38,855 nucleotides of DNA, taken from positions 1-38,855 of the IMG/VR virus record IMGVR_UViG_3300009285_004916, one strand, 5' to 3'. Source of the DNA: a virus. Below the pieces are notes generated by a model. The model was not told the DNA's origin. It saw only the letters and a list, made by a program, of their open reading frames with translations, and made no database searches. Positions within the stretch are counted from its first letter, which is position 1. Every line of letters starts with the position of its first letter. The translations under genes and the position numbers were made by a program. Below, piece by piece: positions 1 through 33,734 of the stretch.

Positions 1-876
1 GAGCACCTTCCCGCGAATGGCGGCGGAGGTTTCCGCTTCCTGCATCTGAGCGGTCTTGAGCCGTTTCTCCACGGTCGCGGCGTCCACATCGGCGACAATC
101 TGATGTTGGCTCAAGAGCTCTTTGTCTTTGAGCAGTTCTGCAAACGCGGCGTTCATCAATCCTTGCTTTGTGGTATGCCGACCGAGGAACGATTTGACGA
201 CGGGATGCTCTAAGAGTAGGGAGGCGGGAAGCGGTTGGCCAACGCGTGACGGATCGGTTTGTTCAATCGCCCGTCGTAACCGGGGAAGGTCTTGGAGCAT
301 GGCGTTCTTGAGCTCGGTGACATTGGCCGCGCGGAACTTGTCCGCTTGGGCACCGATCTGCGCGGGTTCCAACTGGCCGAGGAACTGTAATTGCACGGGG
401 TCCAGATCCGTGTAAAGCGCCTGGAGATTGCCCGTTCGTCCCTGGAGAAACGCATCCACGATTTTTGAGGCGCCTTCAGGAGTGAGCGACCGAGCTTTCG
501 GATCGCTTGAAAGTCCCTGGAGAAGTGCCGGACCGAGAATATCTCCATACTCCTTCCGTTCCTCGGGGGTGAAATTCTCCGCACGTTTGCCGAGCAGATC
601 AAGAATGGAGAACGCGCCTTTCGCTGTTTCCATCCGAGACTGTTGAATCTGTGCATTGTGCATCCGCGTGGATTCCGCCAACGTCGCCTCGAACTGCGTC
701 TGCTGCTGCGCGGCTCGTCGGTCCTCCTGCGCCATGCGTTCGCGGGCGAGGTCCTGCTCCATGAATGGCGGGGTGCGACCTTGCATTCCGTAGCCGAATC
801 CCTGGAGCGCACGTCCGAACGTTTCGAGGGTGCTGCGGGGCTTCTCGGACGCGCTTCCGCCGATGATGTCAGCCAT
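1..876 (-). CDS. Helical virion-associated protein, partial (C-terminus beyond left edge)
   Basis: An open frame of 292 codons runs from an ATG at 876 to the left edge without a stop. The protein is glutamine- and alanine-rich and looks mostly helical; residues about 30-80 resemble a coiled coil. No catalytic motif was seen. Its start overlaps the end of the S74-domain gene by 8 bases, so it belongs to the structural operon. Long helical proteins next to tail genes of short-tailed phages are often internal (ejected) proteins; that role is inferred from context only. Several longer frames on the same stretch are shadows: this frame is the one coupled to its neighbour. Confidence 0.8.
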   Translation of the reverse strand, partial: MADIIGGSASEKPRSTLETFGRALQGFGYGMQGRTPPFMEQDLARERMAQEDRRAAQQQTQFEATLAESTRMHNAQIQQSRMETAKGAFSILDLLGKRAENFTPEERKEYGDILGPALLQGLSSDPKARSLTPEGASKIVDAFLQGRTGNLQALYTDLDPVQLQFLGQLEPAQIGAQADKFRAANVTELKNAMLQDLPRLRRAIEQTDPSRVGQPLPASLLLEHPVVKSFLGRHTTKQGLMNAAFAELLKDKELLSQHQIVADVDAATVEKRLKTAQMQEAETSAAIRGKVL

Positions 877-1918
877 TGACTTTTCGATCCAGTGCGATCA
901 GCGCGGCATGGAGGAGCCCGAGATAGTCCAAGAGATTCACATGGACGCCATCATCGGTGAGTAGGGCGGGGCTGGTTTCAAGAATGGGACCGATGTGTGG
1001 CACCCGGTCGGCATCGGTCTCCCACCGATAGCGATAGCGCACGATGGGGGTTTGTCGCACCGTCCGAAGCGCCTCTGCATGGTCGTGGACGGTCAAAGGG
1101 GTGATCGCACGCTTGACGCGAGCGGTGCTGGCTCCGAGCATGGCGCCGCCGACGGCCCCGGCGAGTTGCCCGCCAAGTTGGGTGTATCCCTGCGCCAGTT
1201 GCAACGTGCTCGGGAACTGTTGCATGGTTTGCGACCGTGGGGCGGACGCTAAGCGTTGCGCGAACAGATTCTGGGCCATCATCCCGGCTTGAGGGGCGAA
1301 CGTTCCGCCCGCCAGCGCGAGCCGGTTCATAAATGCCTGCTGCTGCAACCGCGACTGGAAGTCGGCGAGGGACTGGCTAAACAACGCCTCCGTCTGCCCG
1401 ACGTCCAGTTCCGCTTGGGCGCGGGTGCCTTCAAGCCCCTGAATGAACCGTCCGCTTTCTTGGAGGAACGGGGCTGCGACCGGGGAATCCGCCCGCGTCA
1501 TGCCGCGCATGGCTGCGGTCTCGTTGGCGAGACGGGTCAAGTCTTCCAGGCCGCGCGTCTTGGCCGCGCCAAAGGCCGTACCCACGCGAGCTTCGGCTTC
1601 CGGTGGAAGGACCGGTGAACGCCCCTCCAGGCGTGCCAACAGGTTCTCGGTCGCTAACGCTTGCACGCGCTTTTGGGCGGCGGCTTCGGGGGACGCCGCA
1701 AAAGCCTCGCGCTCTGTTTTGGCGCCCTCTAGTTCTTCGAGTTGAAGCTGGGAGATCCGCCCGACGCGCGCCTCTTGCTCGGCTTCAAGCGCGGATTGCG
1801 CGGGCAACTGCGGTGCGGGCACCTTGATCGTGGTTTTCGGCCCGCCAAAGAGATCCGCCAACGCAATCGGGAGCCACGCGCCCACCAGCGCCACGGCACT
1901 CAGCGTGTCGATGATCAT
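869..1918 (-). CDS. Virion protein with C-terminal S74-type intramolecular chaperone domain
   Basis: 349 residues. An N-terminal hydrophobic stretch (about 5-24) is followed by a long, charged, alanine/glutamine-rich helical region (40-235). Residues 264-349 match the peptidase S74 (endosialidase-type intramolecular chaperone) pattern: a Ser-x-x-Arg-x-Lys start (S264, R267, K269), a basic/aromatic strand near 294-299, an I-G-P-I motif near 309-312 and a closing helix. S74 domains trimerise the upstream protein and then cut themselves off at the conserved serine. The usual Asp after that Ser is Thr here. S74 domains normally end tail fibres or spikes; here the partner is helical. Start ATG overlaps nothing upstream; the stop gives an ATGA overlap with the acetyltransferase gene at 1915-1918. 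Function is well supported for the domain, not for the whole protein. Confidence 0.82.
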   Translation of the reverse strand: MIIDTLSAVALVGAWLPIALADLFGGPKTTIKVPAPQLPAQSALEAEQEARVGRISQLQLEELEGAKTEREAFAASPEAAAQKRVQALATENLLARLEGRSPVLPPEAEARVGTAFGAAKTRGLEDLTRLANETAAMRGMTRADSPVAAPFLQESGRFIQGLEGTRAQAELDVGQTEALFSQSLADFQSRLQQQAFMNRLALAGGTFAPQAGMMAQNLFAQRLASAPRSQTMQQFPSTLQLAQGYTQLGGQLAGAVGGAMLGASTARVKRAITPLTVHDHAEALRTVRQTPIVRYRYRWETDADRVPHIGPILETSPALLTDDGVHVNLLDYLGLLHAALIALDRKVNG

Positions 1919-7392: not shown

Positions 7393-9402
7393 CTAACAAG
7401 GCCGCCGACGGCGAGGCGTCGGTTTCCGAGGGAAGAGCGGCCGGGGGAAGCCCGGTTCCGCCATGTGCTCGGATTCCCGGGGCATTCCGGCCCGTTGGCG
7501 GAGCCAATCGCCCAGCACCGACCACGGGAAGACCGCCGGATCGAAGGGTGGTGGAGGCGGGATGTTCTCGAAGATCCACGCCGGGAGTGGCTCATCGGTC
7601 GGAAGCCAGATCCGCCGGGCACGGGCTCGGTAGGAGGCCCACAGGGCGTCCAGAGCCGCCGTAATGAACCGGGGATCGAAGGCGAAGTCAAACTGGGTCC
7701 ATGAGGGTTGGTCGGTGGGGAGCCAGACTCGGCGCCGGAGGTCGAGAGACACCCAGCGAGGCTCGATAGCCGGCCAAAGGGCCGGGTTGAACGGGGAAGC
7801 CAGCCAAGCGTCGCTCGACGGCTCCGTAACCCGCCAGGTTGGTCGGGGCTTCGCGCGATAGGTGTCCAGTTGGCTCTGAAAGGCCGCCCAGAGGAGTCTG
7901 GGATCGCTTTGCCAGGTCCATGCGGTATCGGCCACGTCGCCTTCGCGCCAGTCCGGTCGAGCCTCCGCTCGGTAGGATTCGACCAGGAATCGGATGGCGG
8001 AGAGAAATGACAACTCGAAGGTGCTCGGAACGGAGAACATCCAGGCATCGGCCGGCGTATCCCAGACGCGCCACGAGGGCCGTGGGGCGGATCGGAAGGA
8101 CGCCCGGAGTCCCTGCGTGGACGCCACAGTAAACATCGGGTCAAACGGGAAGTCTCGGAGAAAGAGATAGGGCTCGCTAATGAGTCGTTGGAACCGTTTT
8201 CGGCTCTGAAACGCCTCCAAGAGAAACCGGATGGCGGGCATGACCACCCGGGCGTCCAAGAGGCCAAACGGAAACTTGTAATCCTTGACACGCGCATCGG
8301 GACGCTTGCCTGTTCGATAGGACCCGGCCAAGAAGTCATACGCGGCCCATGCCGTGGTCGGATCAAACGCGGGTTGCGCGGCCGATTCTGGTCCTCCCGC
8401 CAGTTTTCGACCAGGAAATCGTCGCGCATCCCAGACATGCGAGATGCGGATCTGGCGCTCCCACTGGAGGAGTTGTGCAATCGCGGGCCAGAACGTGGCA
8501 TCGAACGTGGAGACAATATTCTGGCTCCACATCGGGAGGTCGGCCACGCGCCAGGACGGACGAGGCCCCATTCGGAAAGAGGCCGTGAGACCATCAAACG
8601 CCGCACGGGCCGCCCGAGCGATGAAGACCTGGTGTATCCAGGCATCGTGGGGCCACCCGGCCACGAACCATGAGGGACGAGCGCCCACTCGATAGGACGT
8701 GGCCAACTCGTGAAGACTCGCCGTTGTGAATTGTGCATCGAAGGAGAAATCCTGGGTGAAGGTGGGTTGATCCACCACGCGCCAGCGTGGCCGAGCGTCC
8801 ACACGAAAGGACGCGACCAAGAGATCCAACGCGCCCCGAGCGGTAATCGGGTCGAACGCCCCCAGGATCGGAAAGATCCATCCCACGTCGATGGGGTCCA
8901 CAATCCATCGGCTGGAACGCGCAGGAGTTCGGACCGCGCGTTGCTCCACGCCCGGCCAAAGTTCGTGGCTATAGGTCGCGCCGAACCGGAACCCGGAAAC
9001 CGGTTGGTCCAATCGGAGCCGAGTCGGTGGAGCCGGTGGTCGGAAACTCCCGCCCCGAGTGTCCACGGCGGGCCAGAGCTCATGGGTGAAGACCGCACCG
9101 AAGGGAATGCGCTGAGGTTGATCCAGTGGAAAGACCCCGAGTCTGCGCGAAGCGCGAAACGAGCGAGCCAAAGCTTCAGCAGGCACTCGGAGATCGGGCG
9201 GGAGCGTTTTGAAGATCCACGCGGCTTGTGGCTGGTCCAGAAGCGCATAGACGGTCGGGCGTCGGCGTTCTCTGGCACGCTCAGATCGGCCCAGGCGGTC
9301 GATGCCCGGCCAGACCACCGCGTTGAAGACAGTGACTTCAAAGGCGCCGAAGCGACCCGTTGTGCCGCGCGGATGGAGGCGGCGAAGCACCCGGGTCTGC
9401 AT
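7393..9402 (-). CDS. Protein of about 15 degenerate 42-residue repeats
   Basis: 669 residues. The sequence is a chain of about 15 units of about 42 residues. Each has an F-D-P-x-F-like opening, a helix-like segment ending in S-Y/F-R, then R-P-x-W-R-V, a D-x-P turn and a closing aromatic (W-I/W-L/F). Good copies lie at residues about 160-205, 265-310, 420-460 and 590-640; copies near 330-400 are worn. I do not recognise the family. An overlapping 686-codon frame on the same strand lacks this repeat logic and is rejected. Position among fibre genes suggests an extended fibre or a decoration rod. The ATG at 9402 directly follows the stop of the 45-residue gene. Confidence 0.85.
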   Translation of the reverse strand: MQTRVLRRLHPRGTTGRFGAFEVTVFNAVVWPGIDRLGRSERARERRRPTVYALLDQPQAAWIFKTLPPDLRVPAEALARSFRASRRLGVFPLDQPQRIPFGAVFTHELWPAVDTRGGSFRPPAPPTRLRLDQPVSGFRFGATYSHELWPGVEQRAVRTPARSSRWIVDPIDVGWIFPILGAFDPITARGALDLLVASFRVDARPRWRVVDQPTFTQDFSFDAQFTTASLHELATSYRVGARPSWFVAGWPHDAWIHQVFIARAARAAFDGLTASFRMGPRPSWRVADLPMWSQNIVSTFDATFWPAIAQLLQWERQIRISHVWDARRFPGRKLAGGPESAAQPAFDPTTAWAAYDFLAGSYRTGKRPDARVKDYKFPFGLLDARVVMPAIRFLLEAFQSRKRFQRLISEPYLFLRDFPFDPMFTVASTQGLRASFRSAPRPSWRVWDTPADAWMFSVPSTFELSFLSAIRFLVESYRAEARPDWREGDVADTAWTWQSDPRLLWAAFQSQLDTYRAKPRPTWRVTEPSSDAWLASPFNPALWPAIEPRWVSLDLRRRVWLPTDQPSWTQFDFAFDPRFITAALDALWASYRARARRIWLPTDEPLPAWIFENIPPPPPFDPAVFPWSVLGDWLRQRAGMPRESEHMAEPGFPRPLFPRKPTPRRRRPC

Positions 9403-9540
9403 TTAGCCAATCCCCACTCCCATGACTTCTGTCCGCTCACACCACGTCTCGGTGACGGCGCTTTCCACGACCAAGGTCTCGCTGGCTTCCGTGGTCAACT
9501 CCTCGCTGGCTTCCGTGAGGATGGCATAGGAGTCTGGCAT
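9403..9540 (-). CDS. 45-residue acidic protein with internal duplication
   Basis: ATG at 9540 is one base after the fibre-tip gene stop, and the TAA abuts the ATG of the repeat protein. The peptide is strongly acidic and has a near-duplicated segment (L-T-E-A-S-E followed by T-T-E-A-S-E), visible in DNA as two copies of GGAAGCCAGCGAG. No homolog recognised. Its exact fit between neighbours supports it being translated; it may be a linker peptide or a translational coupler. Confidence 0.62.
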   Translation of the reverse strand: MPDSYAILTEASEELTTEASETLVVESAVTETWCERTEVMGVGIG

Positions 9541-9541
9541 G

Positions 9542-10165
9542 TTACGCCGTCCGCTTCCAGAGATAGACCACGACATACGGCTGGACGTTGGCGTGCGCGC
9601 CGCCGCCGCCGGTGTTCTGGTTCGTCGCCGTCGCGTTCTGGTTGGTCGCCGTCGCGTTTTGGTTGACAGCGGTGGCGTTCTCCGTATTGACGGCCGTGTC
9701 CACGGTGGACGAGGTGTCAGAGGTTCGTGCGATCAGCGTGGTCGCGCCCCCCGTCGTGGCGCTTCGTTCTCTTAGCGTTTGATGGAGGTGCGCGTTCTGC
9801 GTATGGGTGTGGGCATCCTGGGTGTGCGTGTGCGCATCTTGCGTGTGGGTGTGCGAAGGCATCTCCGCCGTAGTCAGCGTGACGGTCTTGGCCCCGCCGG
9901 TCTCCTCCACCACGTCGAAATCCGGGTCGCCCGTGTCGATCCCCACGAGCGTCCGCCCGGTGCCGAAGGCACTCCACGTTCCAAACCCCAGGAGCGTATT
10001 CGGGTTGGTCGCCACCACGGCGATGAACACCGACCCCACGGGCCACGCGAGGGAGAGGGTATCCGCGACCGTGAACTGCTTCGTCGTGCTTGATTGGACT
10101 CCCGGGAAGACGTCCGTTGCCGCCACGGTGCCGCTCGGGAGCGCGGAGATCTTGACGACGGCCAT
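9542..10165 (-). CDS. Receptor-binding fibre tip with histidine (H-x-H) repeats
   Basis: 207 residues. The N-terminal 45 residues carry a short adaptor segment, followed by the well-known fibre-tip core V-G-S-V-F-I..., G-T-W-x-A-F-G-x-G-R and T-G-D-P-D-F-D. Then come repeated H-T-H-T-Q-D-A units (about 123-150), a threonine/asparagine repeat (N-A-T-A-x-N-Q, three copies) and a closing N-V-Q-P-Y-V-V-V-Y-L-W-K-R-T-A. The H-x-H repeats resemble those that bind iron along the trimer axis in T4 gp37-like tips. The start is the ATG at 10165 in a TGATG junction. Likely recognises the host surface. Confidence 0.85.
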   Translation of the reverse strand: MAVVKISALPSGTVAATDVFPGVQSSTTKQFTVADTLSLAWPVGSVFIAVVATNPNTLLGFGTWSAFGTGRTLVGIDTGDPDFDVVEETGGAKTVTLTTAEMPSHTHTQDAHTHTQDAHTHTQNAHLHQTLRERSATTGGATTLIARTSDTSSTVDTAVNTENATAVNQNATATNQNATATNQNTGGGGAHANVQPYVVVYLWKRTA

Positions 10166-10923
10166 CAGATATCCTGCCGCCCGATCATGCCGCCGGTACT
10201 GGTTTGAAACCGTACCGCCATGATTTGCGCGGTGCTGGGACCCGCCGCCGACAGCCGGGTCGTGTTCTCGATGCCCAGCGGAACGGTGTCGATCGTGCCT
10301 ACGGCTCGACTGGTCTTGAGCGTTGCCGAGAATTGACCGCTCGTCAGGTATAACTTCGAGGCCTGAATCCCCACCCACGGCGTATTAGTCTGATCCCAAC
10401 TGATTCCCTGGACTTCATTGTCTATGAGGCTCATAGATCGGCTGGTCTTCATCGTGGCGGAAAACTGGCCAGATTGGAGATAGAGCTTCGCGGACGTATA
10501 CCCACAATGGGGCGTATTGGTGCCGTCCCAACTGATCCCCGAGTGTTCGTCCTCCGTCACGGCGCGGCTCGTTTTAATCGTCGCCGAGAATTGGCCCGAT
10601 TGGAGCAAGAGCTTCTCACTCGTGGGGAGATCAGAGTAGGTGATCCAGGGGGTATTTGTGCCGTCCCAACTCAGATCGCTGATCTCCGTATAGGCCGCGG
10701 CGCGACTGGTCTTCAATGTGGCCGAGAACTGGCCCGATTGAAGGTAAAACTTGTTGTCGGTATCTCCCGACCACGGGCTATTCGTCCCGGTCCAGGCGAT
10801 GCCGCTGGGGGACGTATCCACGGCCCCAACGGCTTGACTGTCTTTCATGGTGGCCGAGAATTGTCCGGACTGCAGGTACAGCTTGTCATCGTTCGCGCCG
10901 CACCACGGGGTGTTACCGGGCAT
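10165..10923 (-). CDS. Five-repeat propeller-like protein
   Basis: 252 residues containing five copies of a 42-46 residue unit with the core L-Q-S-G-Q-F-S-A-T-x-K-T-S-R-A followed by G-I-S-W-D-G-T-N-T-P-W. The SGQF cores start at residues 19, 63, 109, 151 and 195. WD-like strand patterns suggest a five-bladed propeller. The protein begins in the middle of a unit (N-T-P-W at 4-7), so blade 1 lacks its first strands unless the C-terminus closes the ring. The final 30 residues are unrelated to the repeat. Probable carbohydrate-binding virion part. It overlaps the glycosyltransferase end by 11 bases. Confidence 0.83.
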   Translation of the reverse strand: MPGNTPWCGANDDKLYLQSGQFSATMKDSQAVGAVDTSPSGIAWTGTNSPWSGDTDNKFYLQSGQFSATLKTSRAAAYTEISDLSWDGTNTPWITYSDLPTSEKLLLQSGQFSATIKTSRAVTEDEHSGISWDGTNTPHCGYTSAKLYLQSGQFSATMKTSRSMSLIDNEVQGISWDQTNTPWVGIQASKLYLTSGQFSATLKTSRAVGTIDTVPLGIENTTRLSAAGPSTAQIMAVRFQTSTGGMIGRQDI

Positions 10924-28229: not shown

Positions 28230-29957
28230 CTAGTAGCCCCCTCGCGGCGTTCCCACCCGGATGATGGCCGCGCCGCGCTTCAATCCACGGTAACTCAGGT
28301 TTCCATTCGCAAAGTACCGCAACAGATCCGGAAAATCTTTGTGTCGATCGCGGACTTTCTCTTTCGCCTCTCGGTCCCCGCCCTTGTATTCATCCCACGA
28401 CCAATGGGAGAGGCCGTAGATGAACTTCGTGCACGTGCGCATCGCCTCGAACCGCGGGCGGCGCGTGAAGGGATCAGGACGCAAGAGCTCGTTCACGTGC
28501 TGAATGCCGAGCGGGATACTGTCGTTGGCAAGATCGCACCGAAGTCCCGCGCGGTCATAGGCCATCCGGTGCGTCCACCCGCGCTCCAGGAGGTCATTGC
28601 CCTCGGTCGCGATGTTGGGGTCCATCAAGCGGAGCACCGGCGCGCAATGCGCCCGCTCCTCCCACTGATGCACCGCGCCGACACGCTCGATCACATCGCC
28701 CGCTGCTTCGAGTTCCCCGATCATCACCACCCCGTCGGAGGGCGTCAAGGCAAACCAGCCGTTGGCATCGGCCTTCCGGGGATGCGGGTCGATCACATGC
28801 ACCACGGGCCACTCCGTCGGCACGGCGAAGGACGCGATCACGTGCGAGAAGGGTTCCGTGTTGGTGCCGCCGCAGGTCGGGCACGTCGGCACGCCCGCCA
28901 CGATCTTCTTCGAGCAAGTGAAACACCACTGGGCGGGATAGGGCGCAAACAGCGGATAGACCACGCCCGAGAGGTGGAGGAACCGCCCGTAGAGCCGGGC
29001 CTCGCGCTGGGCGTCGGTCCACGTGCGCACCATCGCGGCGATCTCCTCCGCCGTGTTGATTGGGTTCTTCTCCGTCCAGAGCGTGACGGTCTCATAGCGC
29101 GGGTCGCGGTCGGGGCCGGGGAGCCCGCGCTCATACACTTGGTCGTAGAACCACGCCACGTCCGAGCCGGAGATCACGGTGTTGCCGGGCTCGACCTCAT
29201 CGGGGGGTGTGAAGCCCGTCAGGAGGCGGCCTTTCACATCGAGGGTGCGGAGTTGATTCTCCCGGTAGATCCGTTGGGGAGGCAATTCATCATGACAGGC
29301 GACATGAAGAGAACTGCCTGCGAAATCGGACGTGTCTTGGTTATAGGACATGAACTGGAGAGAGGAATAGCCGCGGATCTCACAGCGTTCCCCGTTCGCT
29401 CCCACCCACAGAGAATCCACGGCGACCTTCAACGTATCGGTCCTGGCGCTATAGGCCTTCTCCCACGTCCCGCCGGGCAGGCACCGCCGGGGAATCCATC
29501 CCCAGTGGCCCAAGCCCGTCTCGGGCTCCGCCCCCTCCCAACAATCCCACCGGAGTTTCGGCTTGATCACGGGATCGAGGGTCCGCGTCATGGAGTTACA
29601 CACGAGGCGGGCGCGGCATGGCAGGCGTCCCCGAAGTTTCTCCGTCGGATAGATGCCTTGGAGCGCGACGGGGATGTGACCCGTCAACGCGATCGCAAGT
29701 TCCGAGAGCATCGTTTCAGACTTCCCGCTTCGATTTCCGCCCACGATCGCCACTTCTTGCGCCGTGCTCTTATGCACGGCCCATGCATCGGGGTTGAGCG
29801 GCCGGTAGTGCGCGAGGGCCACCTCTTGGCGGTTCTGGAGCCACCCCGTTGTGAGCGCCTCATGGACGGCGGCGTAATAGTCAGGGGTCTCCCGTTGGAC
29901 GCGCTGGTGATCCTCCGCCGTCCAGGTCGCAATCTCGGCCAGATCAATCAGGGGCAC
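28230..29957 (-). CDS. terL: Terminase large subunit (packaging ATPase/nuclease)
   Basis: 575 residues from a GTG at 29957, just after an in-frame TGA. Walker A is G-G-N-R-S-G-K-S (73-80); Walker B ends with L-H-V-A-C-H-D-E (D223, E224). The nuclease half starts near V-H-V-I-D-P (D390) with further acids near M-D-P-N-I-A and K-D-F-P-D-L-L. Between the two halves, C345-F-T-C348 and C359-P-T-C362 form a zinc-ribbon insertion (bases 28872-28925) that is not part of the usual TerL core. It packs DNA into the head through the portal. A small-subunit gene was not recognised nearby. Confidence 0.92.
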   Translation of the reverse strand: MPLIDLAEIATWTAEDHQRVQRETPDYYAAVHEALTTGWLQNRQEVALAHYRPLNPDAWAVHKSTAQEVAIVGGNRSGKSETMLSELAIALTGHIPVALQGIYPTEKLRGRLPCRARLVCNSMTRTLDPVIKPKLRWDCWEGAEPETGLGHWGWIPRRCLPGGTWEKAYSARTDTLKVAVDSLWVGANGERCEIRGYSSLQFMSYNQDTSDFAGSSLHVACHDELPPQRIYRENQLRTLDVKGRLLTGFTPPDEVEPGNTVISGSDVAWFYDQVYERGLPGPDRDPRYETVTLWTEKNPINTAEEIAAMVRTWTDAQREARLYGRFLHLSGVVYPLFAPYPAQWCFTCSKKIVAGVPTCPTCGGTNTEPFSHVIASFAVPTEWPVVHVIDPHPRKADANGWFALTPSDGVVMIGELEAAGDVIERVGAVHQWEERAHCAPVLRLMDPNIATEGNDLLERGWTHRMAYDRAGLRCDLANDSIPLGIQHVNELLRPDPFTRRPRFEAMRTCTKFIYGLSHWSWDEYKGGDREAKEKVRDRHKDFPDLLRYFANGNLSYRGLKRGAAIIRVGTPRGGY

Positions 29958-30694: not shown

Positions 30695-31484
30695 TTTCGA
30701 TGTCTACCACCGTCACTCCCAGATCGTGCGGGATCAGCCCCCGCTGCTCGACGTACCCCGCTTCCGTCCCGTCGAGATAGGCGCGTTGGAAACTCCCGCT
30801 CCCGATGACGTACCGTTTGATGCTCCCGTGGTCGAAGTCGAGCCCGCTCCGAGGGACGGCCATCTTGGCGTTATCGTGCCCGCTGATCACCAGATGCGCC
30901 GTGGGGGCGATCTCCGCCGCCCGGATGCGACGCATCACGCGCCCCCCGTAGGTCTGGGCGCCGCCGCCCCCGTGCCAGCAGAGCACGTCCAGGTGGCAGG
31001 CGTGCGGAAAGGAGAGGCGGAGATACGCCACCCCCGTCCCCCAGTAGTGGCACCCGAGATTCGACGCAAGCCATGCGTCGGATGAGCGTCCCTGCCACGC
31101 ACCGGCCGCCGTCTGCGTGGCGAAGAGGTAGTGATGATGACCGGTGAGCAGGCCCAGGAAACAGTGCTTGATGGGGGCCAGGAGGCGGAGAAACTCGCGG
31201 AGATCCGTGAGGTGCGCCCGGTCGATCTTCACGTTGGTCGTTTCGTGGAGGGCGCCGGTGGTCATCGCCCGGCGCTCGGTCGGAGAACCAAAATCCAGAT
31301 AGTCGCCCAGACCGGGAATTCGCACAAGTTCTCCATGCTCCCGCTCACGTTCCTGCACCCACCGCACGAAGCGGATGACGCGGTCCCGGTCGCATTCGGG
31401 CGTGTCCCAATGGACGTCCCCCAGCGCCACCAGCCGGAGACGCTGGCCGACCTTCAACGGGATCGGGTAGGTCCGCTTAAACAT
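30645..31484 (-). CDS. Calcineurin-like metallophosphoesterase
   Basis: 279 residues. All metal-binding blocks are visible: G-D-V-H-W-D (D23, H25), G-L-G-D-Y-L-D (D61), G-H-H-H (115-118), W-H-G-G-G-G (H171) and S-G-H-D-N (H203). The fold is that of dinuclear metal phosphoesterases, which cleave phosphomono- or diesters, including nucleic acids. Common in phages; substrate unknown. ATG at 31484 overlaps the acetyltransferase end by 8 bases. Confidence 0.88.
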   Translation of the reverse strand: MFKRTYPIPLKVGQRLRLVALGDVHWDTPECDRDRVIRFVRWVQEREREHGELVRIPGLGDYLDFGSPTERRAMTTGALHETTNVKIDRAHLTDLREFLRLLAPIKHCFLGLLTGHHHYLFATQTAAGAWQGRSSDAWLASNLGCHYWGTGVAYLRLSFPHACHLDVLCWHGGGGAQTYGGRVMRRIRAAEIAPTAHLVISGHDNAKMAVPRSGLDFDHGSIKRYVIGSGSFQRAYLDGTEAGYVEQRGLIPHDLGVTVVDIEIEKRNGRWRTDYHCSV

Positions 31485-31905
31485 CCTCCAGGTGCTCCGC
31501 AGGCGTCAGCAGGGAGGGGGTGCGAAGATCCACGCGCACCCGATACCCCGCCTCCAGCGTGGCGCCGCCCCGCTGATAGAGCGCCGCCGCCGGCCGGTCC
31601 GCTCGCGCGAACCCCGCCAGCCCGTGCGCGCCATACGCCCGGGCGGTCCGGGCCACCGCCCGAAGCAGCCCCAGCCCTGTCCGTCCCGTTCCATGCCACT
31701 CGGGCGCGACCGCGAGGGCATGCACCCAGCATTCCGGACGCCCCCAGTCCCACCGCACGGCGCCCCGCAGGTGTCCGCTTTGGTGCTCATCCACGAGCCA
31801 CCAGCCGTCGAGATCCGGAACTCCGTACGCCCGCGGGATCTGATCGGTCGCCTCCAACAGGCGGAGTAGGGCGGGACGGTCGGATTCCACGATCCACCGG
31901 ATCAT
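31477..31905 (-). CDS. GNAT-family N-acetyltransferase
   Basis: 142 residues. The strand W-V-H-A-L-A-V-A-P-E-W followed by H-G-T-G-R-T-G-L-G-L is the acetyl-CoA-binding motif A, and the later A-A-A-L-Y-Q-R-G-G-A-T-L is motif B. ATGA overlap with the Hint-protein gene sets the start. Substrate unknown; it shares little with the other GNAT at 1915-2304 beyond the fold. Confidence 0.88.
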   Translation of the reverse strand: MIRWIVESDRPALLRLLEATDQIPRAYGVPDLDGWWLVDEHQSGHLRGAVRWDWGRPECWVHALAVAPEWHGTGRTGLGLLRAVARTARAYGAHGLAGFARADRPAAALYQRGGATLEAGYRVRVDLRTPSLLTPAEHLEDV

Positions 31906-33263
31906 TTGGCAGGACCGCCCGCGACGGCCCCAAGCGGTCCCGCCGGGCCTTGACCCGCCGACGGGGCATTCCCCGCCGAGGGAGCATTCCCGATCCCGGT
32001 CGCCGCGCCCATGAATCCGCCGAACAAGCCGCCGATCCCGATCCCAGCGCCTCCTCGCTGTCCTCCGCCGATCATGCCGCCGATCCCCGCGCCAAGCACC
32101 CCCAATCCCGGTTGTCCCATTCCCAGCCCCGCCAGGCTTCCCAGGAGCCCCCCGATCTGTCCCCCTTGGAGGGCGCGTCCCACAGAAAGATGCGCCAAGC
32201 TAGAGAGCGGGGAGGGCGGATTTCCGGCCCGTCCGGGGTCGGGGTTCGTGTCGGCCGGCGGTCCAAATCCCCCGCCGATGTCCCCCGTCTGACCCGACGA
32301 AGTGCCGCCGCCTCCCATGCCGGGAGCGCTTCCAGCGGGACTCCCCGGCGGTCCCCCCAACGCCGCGGCTTCCGAGGCCGAGATGCCCGCCGCCGCGGCA
32401 GAGGCTTCTCCCAGTCCTGCCGCTGCCGCAGCCCCGATCTCTCCTGCGGTCGCTTGCCCCACGTCTCCTGAAATGCCTGGGTCTCCCCCGCCGCCCCCGC
32501 CGTCTCCTCCCCCGCCCGCATCGTTATGCACCAGCCACGCCCGCTCCCCGTCCCAGACGTAGAAGGTGTGCGTGGGTTCGACGGAGAGGTTCCACACGGG
32601 CTCGGCCGGGAGGCCCGCCTCCACGTGCTGCACGTCATGCAGCCCGTCCGCCGTCCAGAGCGGGTCGCCCAGCTTCACGTAGATCGCCCGGACCCACCGT
32701 TTCTCGCCCGCGAGTCGATGCCAGTCCGAGACGATTAGGCCGTCGATCCGGCGCAGATCGTCCACGGGGGCCGAGGCCGTGACCTTCACCACTCGCGCCA
32801 CCGTGGGTCGAGCGCGCTCCTCGTCCCATGAGGCGACCATCTCCTCCGGGCGGACCTCGGCAATCGATTTCCTCGTCCCATCGGCCATGACCACTCGCAT
32901 CGACGCCGGGAAACACGCGGCCGCCGCAGGGCCGCCCCCGCCATCCTGTCGTCCAAGGCCCAACGCCGCCTGCTGGCTACTGAGGAGGCCTGTCAGGCTT
33001 TCGGACTGCCCCGGAGACGCTCCCACGCCAGGGCCGAAGGCGGTTTCGAGCTCCGCCAGGCGGGAGACGTTGAGGGGCGGCGTGGGGCTCTGGAAGCCCT
33101 GCGGCGCCGTGAACCCCAGCGCGGAGGTTCCCATCCCGCCCGGACCCGGGAAGGAGGTGACGCTTTGGGCGCCGCGCGATTGGAGCGCCCGGATGAACGC
33201 CGTCAAGCGCGGGTCGCCGCCTTCGAGAGGTGCACTTAATTGCAAGGGCCCATAAAATGGCAT
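31902..33263 (-). CDS. Protein with Hint/intein-like self-cleaving domain and glycine-zipper tail
   Basis: 453 residues. Residues 117-247 (bases 32523-32915) form a complete Hint domain: first Cys117 in C-F-P-A-S-M-R-V-V-M-A-D-G, block-B-like S-D-W-H (H182), W-V-R-A and G-D-P-L-W, then W-N-L-S-V, H-T-F-Y-V-W and the terminal V-H-N (H246, N247). The next residue is Asp248, not Ser/Thr/Cys, so protein splicing is unlikely; cleavage, as in bacterial intein-like (BIL) domains, fits better. No homing endonuclease is inserted. The N-part (1-116) has no known fold. The C-part is Gly-rich and ends with repeated G-x-x-x-G hydrophobic stretches (about 375-435), a glycine-zipper look suited to membranes. 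ATG 33263 abuts the endonuclease stop. Confidence 0.87.
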   Translation of the reverse strand: MPFYGPLQLSAPLEGGDPRLTAFIRALQSRGAQSVTSFPGPGGMGTSALGFTAPQGFQSPTPPLNVSRLAELETAFGPGVGASPGQSESLTGLLSSQQAALGLGRQDGGGGPAAAACFPASMRVVMADGTRKSIAEVRPEEMVASWDEERARPTVARVVKVTASAPVDDLRRIDGLIVSDWHRLAGEKRWVRAIYVKLGDPLWTADGLHDVQHVEAGLPAEPVWNLSVEPTHTFYVWDGERAWLVHNDAGGGGDGGGGGGDPGISGDVGQATAGEIGAAAAAGLGEASAAAAGISASEAAALGGPPGSPAGSAPGMGGGGTSSGQTGDIGGGFGPPADTNPDPGRAGNPPSPLSSLAHLSVGRALQGGQIGGLLGSLAGLGMGQPGLGVLGAGIGGMIGGGQRGGAGIGIGGLFGGFMGAATGIGNAPSAGNAPSAGQGPAGPLGAVAGGPAK

Positions 33264-33734
33264 TTAGTGTATCTCTACTTCTTCACGAATCCCCGTAAGA
33301 TAATCTGCCGCCCTCAAAAGTCTTCCCACATCATCCTTAAAACGTCCCAATCCATAGTTGCAATCATTGCACAAGAGCCCACGCACTTGATTCGTCCCGT
33401 GGTTGTGATCAACAACCAACAACGTTTCGGCTTTACAAATCGCACATGCGTACTGTTGATCCGCTAACGCCTGATCATAGGCTTCTTCTGTCAGACCATA
33501 TTTCCACCGAAGCCACTTATAATGACTTCGTGTGCGTTCACGATGTCGCATGCGCTGCTGTTGATCTTTTTCTGGATGTTTCCTCCGCCATCGTTGCTTA
33601 TATTCGGTCGCCTTTCCAGGACGTTTCCCAAACCATTTCGGCAGATAAATCCGAAGATAACAAGCACGGCAGAAACCCTTCGCGCAATGAGGGACATGTG
33701 GATGACAGTCGGCCATTCGCTTGGGCCTTGCCAC
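33264..33734 (-). CDS. Recombination endonuclease VII-like HNH nuclease
   Basis: 156 residues from GTG 33734, five bases after the upstream stop with an AGGGG ribosome site. The N-terminus carries a C-A-K-G-F-C-R-A-C-Y zinc knuckle. Residues 97-126 hold C-x-x-C, V-D-H-N-H, V-R-G-L-L-C-N-D-C-N, the signature of T4 endonuclease VII-type HNH enzymes (D109, H110, zinc cysteines 97, 100, 122, 125). Such enzymes cut branched DNA before packaging. The AT content of this gene is higher than in the surrounding genes. Confidence 0.9.
   Translation of the reverse strand: MARPKRMADCHPHVPHCAKGFCRACYLRIYLPKWFGKRPGKATEYKQRWRRKHPEKDQQQRMRHRERTRSHYKWLRWKYGLTEEAYDQALADQQYACAICKAETLLVVDHNHGTNQVRGLLCNDCNYGLGRFKDDVGRLLRAADYLTGIREEVEIH

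Follow-up and report, generated by a model that had tools for sequence, protein, structure and literature searches.

The window analysed here is a virus record from IMG/VR, 38,855 bases in length. An ORF on its minus strand, correctly located in an earlier sequence-only reading of this DNA, encodes from an ATG start a 453-residue protein composed of an N-terminal module, a linker, a Hint domain and a Gly/Ala-rich tail (Table 1). The ATG abuts the stop codon of a recombination endonuclease VII (EndoVII) gene and the stop codon overlaps the start of a GNAT acetyltransferase gene, which places the Hint gene in a tightly packed cluster with the order EndoVII, Hint protein, GNAT, phosphoesterase-like protein, small ORFs, terminase large subunit (TerL), portal and capsid. 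The EndoVII gene is treated as context and not as an established member of a Hint system. The portal and adaptor of the window match the SU10 type and on this basis point to an uncultured, podovirus-like tailed phage as the source. A scan of bacterial genomes with the TerL pair gave no match, and thus no host or prophage was found.

The window contains two GNAT acetyltransferase genes, both on the minus strand, with the second (1915-2454) paired with the gene at 869-1918 (-) as the first is with the Hint gene. Each overlaps by a few bases a gene for a Gly-containing late protein, one of these proteins having a Peptidase_S74 chaperone end, and an acyltransferase gene adjoins the gene for the central tail fibre protein J likewise in several pelagiphages and in phage DSL-LC06. 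Elsewhere in the window, the ORF at 7393-9402 (-) encodes a 669-residue protein in which WRV/PSWR-like motifs recur and for which PHROGs and Pfam gave no match; a 686-residue ORF overlaps it in another frame.

Table 1. Features of the Hint locus in the window
Feature	Position	Strand	Basis
Hint gene, 453-residue protein (N-module, linker, Hint, Gly/Ala-rich tail)	31902-33263	-	ORF, ATG start
N-module, conserved, residues 1-52 (MPFYGPLQLS...GGMGTSALGFT)	33108-33263	-	BLASTP to Hint-less orthologue
Linker, residues 53-116, ending GGGGPAAAA	32916-33107	-	AlphaFold2 low confidence, pLDDT mostly under 50
Hint domain, residues 117-247	32523-32915	-	Pfam, tblastn, AlphaFold2, Foldseek/VIA, motif positions
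Asp248, +1 residue, no Cys/Ser/Thr nucleophile	32520-32522	-	Translation
Gly/Ala-rich tail, residues 248-453, beginning DAGGGGDGGGGGG	31905-32522	-	Composition, shuffle test
Recombination endonuclease VII (HNH) gene, directly upstream	33264-33734	-	Pfam PF02945, E=9.6e-21; PHROG 2914
GNAT acetyltransferase gene, context only	31477-31905	-	Pfam PF00583, E=1.3e-5
Terminase large subunit gene, synteny anchor	28230-29957	-	tblastn to annotated terminases; 53% identity to L013 TerL

N-terminal module, linker and glycine-rich tail

A capsid-protein scan of IMG/VR identified four relatives. In one of these, IMGVR_UViG_3300045966_000079, the gene order is kept, with identities to the window proteins of 53% for TerL, 47% for the portal and 60% for the capsid, and the genomic position of the Hint gene upstream of TerL is occupied by a gene for a 291-residue protein without a Hint domain. 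The first 54 residues of this protein align with the first 52 of the window protein (44% identity over 54 columns, BLASTP E=6e-7 for the pair), a region predicted by AlphaFold2 at medium confidence to form a small beta-alpha-beta unit. Following the N-module, the 291-residue protein has a TSGGGSGGDS linker at a place comparable to that of the Hint domain and then a different C-terminal module, which is also found in Puniceispirillum phage HMO-2011 and in a Synechococcus phage. Two further contigs encode an identical protein, and the comparison is thus with a single orthologue carried by three near-identical contigs. The shared N-module and divergent remainder mean that, at the level of sequence, the two proteins differ in a modular way, the Hint domain and tail being set behind the conserved N-module inside a Gly-rich linker. 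The 116-residue N-terminal part proposed in the sequence-only reading is accordingly conserved over only its first ~52 residues. No whole-protein relative of the window protein was found in annotated phages or in IMG/VR, no Hint-bearing close relative was found, and the searches with the N-module gave no further relative, a scan of bacterial genomes included.

A C-terminal module of ~100 residues starting near ICT (ICTHLHARGYMSDEMYAADERFG...) is common to otherwise unrelated phage proteins and has no Pfam match; its carriers are the product of L010 2050-2376 (+), ADW08441.1 of HMO-2011 and QJT70041.1 of a Synechococcus phage.

Gly makes up 34% and Ala 17% of the 206-residue tail of the window protein, in which GxxxG motifs are concentrated around residues 365-425. 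The glycine-zipper character ascribed to it earlier is real in that GxxxG motifs are present, but their enrichment over shuffles of the 34%-Gly tail is modest (P 0.043, 0.015 and 0.003 under three ways of defining the motif). The highest 19-residue Kyte-Doolittle hydropathy is 1.38, and the AlphaFold2 prediction of the tail is mostly of low confidence with one helix (residues 273-293), the full-length model adding little. Searches with Pfam, NCBIfam, PHROGs and PADLOC identified no toxin or defence domain, the low complexity of the tail limiting this test. Given the modest enrichment, the lack of a strongly hydrophobic stretch and the mostly low-confidence tail, the membrane-inserting, pore-forming or lysis role suggested earlier for this region is weakly supported.

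Sequence and predicted fold of the Hint domain

The motifs of the Hint domain are Cys-117, S179-D-W-H182 (block B), T231-HTFYV-236 (block F) and L244-V-H-N247 (block G), and no homing endonuclease is present, the 131 residues all being accounted for by the Hint fold. The sequence-only reading had placed every visible Hint block within residues 117-247, noted the lack of an endonuclease and identified Asp as the residue following the terminal Asn, and all three observations hold with exact motif positions. The domain departs from the consensus in having Ser for Thr in block B and HR in place of HP, as well as changed GT and GD boxes in the N-terminal half, yet the core catalytic positions are all kept in what is otherwise a very divergent sequence (end branch 3.04; best identity 32%). 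In a tree of Hint domains built without BIL (bacterial intein-like) reference sequences the window domain lies on a long branch and is not placed.

A profile comparison, proposed earlier as a check, aligns Pfam Vint with residues 116-192 (E=5.8e-6) and both Hint (E=0.0035) and PT-HINT (E=0.016) with residues 171-247; all three matches fall short of the curated cut-offs, and the profiles are therefore not decisive by themselves. In tblastn, residues 117-248 align over nearly their full length with annotated HINT domains of Streptomyces and Kitasatospora plasmids, the best alignment having an E of 1e-8 and 33% identity. The AlphaFold2 model, computed from 19 aligned Hint sequences, has a pLDDT of ~96 across the Hint core and a pTM of 0.83 and shows a horseshoe-shaped Hint fold, all beta, that brings the first Cys and the last Asn together. 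A BIL domain is matched by Foldseek with an E of 4e-10. The nearest structures in VIA are 6Y75 (Z 20.5, rmsd 1.5, 133 residues), 1MI8 (Z 20.2) and 2LWY (Z 19.8), and in many of the intein rows Cys-117 (model residue 13) is aligned with residue 1 of the chain and Asn-247 (model residue 143) with the chain end. This structural comparison, also suggested earlier, identifies BIL domains and DnaB mini-inteins as nearest, the two being tied with Z scores within 1. Profiles, tblastn and predicted structure are three independent routes, and together they confirm, on sequence and model, a real Hint domain that is more than a chance resemblance.

Hint domains in the glycine linkers of other phages

Single-sequence patterns from the window Hint domain alone found no match in IMG/VR, and the sole hit of an alignment-based Hint scan was a toxin gene of the RHS type close to the edge of a contig. 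A DNA pattern scan of IMG/VR for LVHN-x-x-GGG, in which the two residues after the Asn are left free, matched 63 stretches, with a Hint domain upstream in 33 of them as judged by a profile from the Hint alignment, a few of them scoring weakly or only partially. Many of the 33 loci are related, and we estimate that they represent about a dozen independent cases. Gly-rich followers are selected by the design of the pattern, and the +1 residue is Lys at 22 loci, Gly at 7, Ala at 2 and Gln at 2. It is never Cys, Ser or Thr although free to be so, and by this sequence feature the 33 loci are not standard splicing inteins.

The host proteins assigned with PHROGs and Pfam are the central tail fibre J (L053, L091 and L045), a hub of the GTA Rcc01698 type (L084 and L087) and, at L067, a Gly_rich_2 adhesin-like protein in which the Hint domain lies inside an otherwise continuous Gly_rich_2 domain. 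The J proteins of L091 (10720-13494, +) and L045 (48-2840, +) have an N-terminal Hint domain (MCC...), and in these two groups, whose further members are L038, L039, L047, L052, L054, L056, L069, L072, L074, L075, L077, L081 and L098, the Hint Cys is placed 2-4 residues past the start Met. Past the terminal Asn the chain reads K-GGGG-VVGKIIGGV..., the counterpart of the start of J proteins that lack a Hint domain, as in phage DSL-LC06 (MSKVLGKIFKAV..., 47% identical) and in pelagiphages (MGGVVKSVV..., MGIGSAFKK..., MGGIVEAIV...). With the Hint domain directly before the Hint-less J start, an Asn-dependent cut at its C-terminal end would leave a normal J, and for this group no other cleavage would make sense.

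Other arrangements were observed among the matched loci. L066 (IMGVR_UViG_3300046003_008547) encodes at 8736-10574 (+) a 613-residue protein whose three Hint domains lie in tandem and all terminate in LVHNK; an EndoVII gene is located ~1.3 kb upstream. The proteins of L058 (3-2636, +) and L100 (10363-11967, -) have a full Hint domain, a Gly linker and then a second Hint-like half (CFAKGTMFEMGDGS... and CFIEGTPIDMADGSS..., respectively) without the terminal His-Asn. In L051 (7062-8291, -) and L071, baseplate-V-like by eye only, the Hint domain starts with Ser (SLLGSAEV...) and the +1 residue is Ala. Collaborative homing with the adjacent EndoVII gene was considered for the window and dropped, such a gene lying within the fetched DNA at only 1 of the 33 other loci (L066); it is also not found in the loci of the Hint-less relative, where other cargo genes are missing too.

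The sequence-only reading had described such a protein beside terminase genes as not a standard phage module, but the protein is no isolated case, Hint domains recurring in Gly-rich linkers of many phage tail proteins. Descriptions of BIL domains have come mainly from bacterial proteins that are non-conserved and hypervariable. In the open-access PMC literature no earlier description of Hint or intein-like domains in phage virion, tail or glycine-rich proteins was found, the phage cases met there being terminase inteins. The kind of domain is known, and what is new is its placement in phage glycine linkers together with a possible pro-domain role. The sequences suggest that BIL-like Hint domains in the glycine linkers of late or tail proteins are a wider, little-described phage habit.

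Proposed processing and comparison with known systems

In the Hint superfamily Cys1 forms a thioester with help from the block B Thr and His, and cyclization of the terminal Asn cuts the C-terminal bond. In the window protein, Cys-117 would undergo an N-S acyl shift aided by Ser-179 and His-182, and Asn-247 would cyclize aided by His-246. Asp-248 could not take over the thioester, so the usual outcome would be N- and/or C-terminal cleavage, separating the N-terminal part of ~116 residues and the Gly-rich C-terminal part from the Hint domain; occasional nucleophile-independent ligation would be possible, disfavoured by Asp-248, and the disordered Gly linker would tolerate either event. The complete, endonuclease-free Hint/BIL-type domain, the lack of a +1 nucleophile and the late cluster near the terminase make self-cleavage, as proposed in the sequence-only reading, the likely chemistry. 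Judged only by its late-gene position and the analogous tail proteins, the window protein is probably part of the virion. Overall, we consider it reasonably probable that the domain is an auto-processing unit similar to A-type BILs, which cuts, and perhaps at times joins, a late podovirus-like phage protein that is probably virion-associated.

BILs are without a +1 nucleophile and for the most part yield cleavage products (PMC7664689), and they are located in non-conserved regions (PMC2814812); those of the A type end in His-Asn (PMC7765530) and are able both to cleave and to splice (PMC5874633). The window domain correspondingly ends in His-246-Asn-247, has Asp-248 at +1, contains no homing endonuclease and, as judged from one orthologue, lies between a conserved N-module and a variable tail. 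The statement in the sequence-only reading that splicing needs Ser, Thr or Cys at +1 requires correction, as A-type BILs can splice without one (PMC5874633) while mainly cleaving (PMC7664689).

This capacity bears on whether the domain is instead a selfish element, akin to a mini-intein, that excises itself by splicing, joining the N-module and linker to the Gly-rich tail, and is tolerated in the linker with no phage function. The title of a 2004 paper by Dassa, as cited in PMC7765530, likewise concerns BIL splicing without a +1 nucleophile, the presence of the Hint domain is patchy, it sits where the orthologue has a Gly linker, and the Gly_rich_2 domain of L067 is continuous but for its Hint domain. 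However, the +1 Asp disfavours ligation, no homing endonuclease is present and the J-group Hint domains have almost no N-extein to ligate, and we regard a splicing element as unlikely. The very long branch, the changed GT and GD boxes and the block B substitutions (Thr to Ser and Pro to Arg) would also suit a degenerate, inactive domain that persists or drifts as a structural insert. They count against the self-cleaving reading, and the long branch could mean relaxed constraint. With Cys-117, His-182, His-246 and Asn-247 all intact and the fold predicted at very high confidence, an inactive insert is nevertheless quite improbable. The sequence relatives of the window Hint domain are PT-HINT domains of polymorphic toxins, which together with the modest GxxxG enrichment could indicate release of a toxin-like, membrane-active C-terminal part for lysis or genome entry; the negative domain searches, the maximum hydropathy and the mostly low-confidence tail described above make such a toxin very hard to credit.

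The self-cleaving reading may be extended to the other phages. As a tentative and rather doubtful proposal, phages could use BIL-like Hint domains in glycine linkers as self-removing pro-domains, Asn-dependent C-terminal cleavage making the mature N terminus of the tail hub J and other late proteins and possibly timing assembly, with the window protein, encoded upstream of the terminase, as a member of the group. The recurrence of Hint domains in tail glycine linkers gives a directly testable role, the self-maturation of particle proteins, and could also supply protein engineering with small cleaving Hint domains.

The closest known systems are compared as follows. The window domain resembles the A-type BILs of Clostridium thermocellum (2LWY) and, structurally, Tetrahymena BUBL1 BIL2 (6Y75) in its Hint fold (VIA Z 19.8-20.5), Cys1, His-Asn end, lack of an endonuclease, absence of Cys, Ser or Thr at +1 and variable, non-conserved location. 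It differs from them in its host, a phage late protein, in having Asp at +1 and Ser in block B, and in its ~20% identity to solved BILs. The PT-HINT/Vint domains of polymorphic toxins provide the best full-length sequence matches (31-33%) and have a similar insert before LVHN, whereas the window protein has no recognizable C-terminal toxin domain and no RHS or secretion N-terminal part and is encoded in a phage late operon. Fold and catalytic motifs are shared with canonical mini-inteins such as Ssp DnaB; unlike class 1 inteins and mini-inteins, the domain is followed by Asp-248 and is inserted in a linker after the N-module, not at a conserved enzyme site. In contrast with the Hog-Hint of Hedgehog, which cleaves N-terminally with lipid transfer, a terminal Asn is present and a 206-residue Gly/Ala-rich tail follows, with no sterol-recognition region. 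With the Hint domains of the phage tail proteins of L053, L091, L045, L084, L087 and L067 it shares a Gly run immediately downstream and a non-nucleophilic +1 residue, although their hosts are J, a GTA-type hub and an adhesin and the window host is encoded upstream of TerL.
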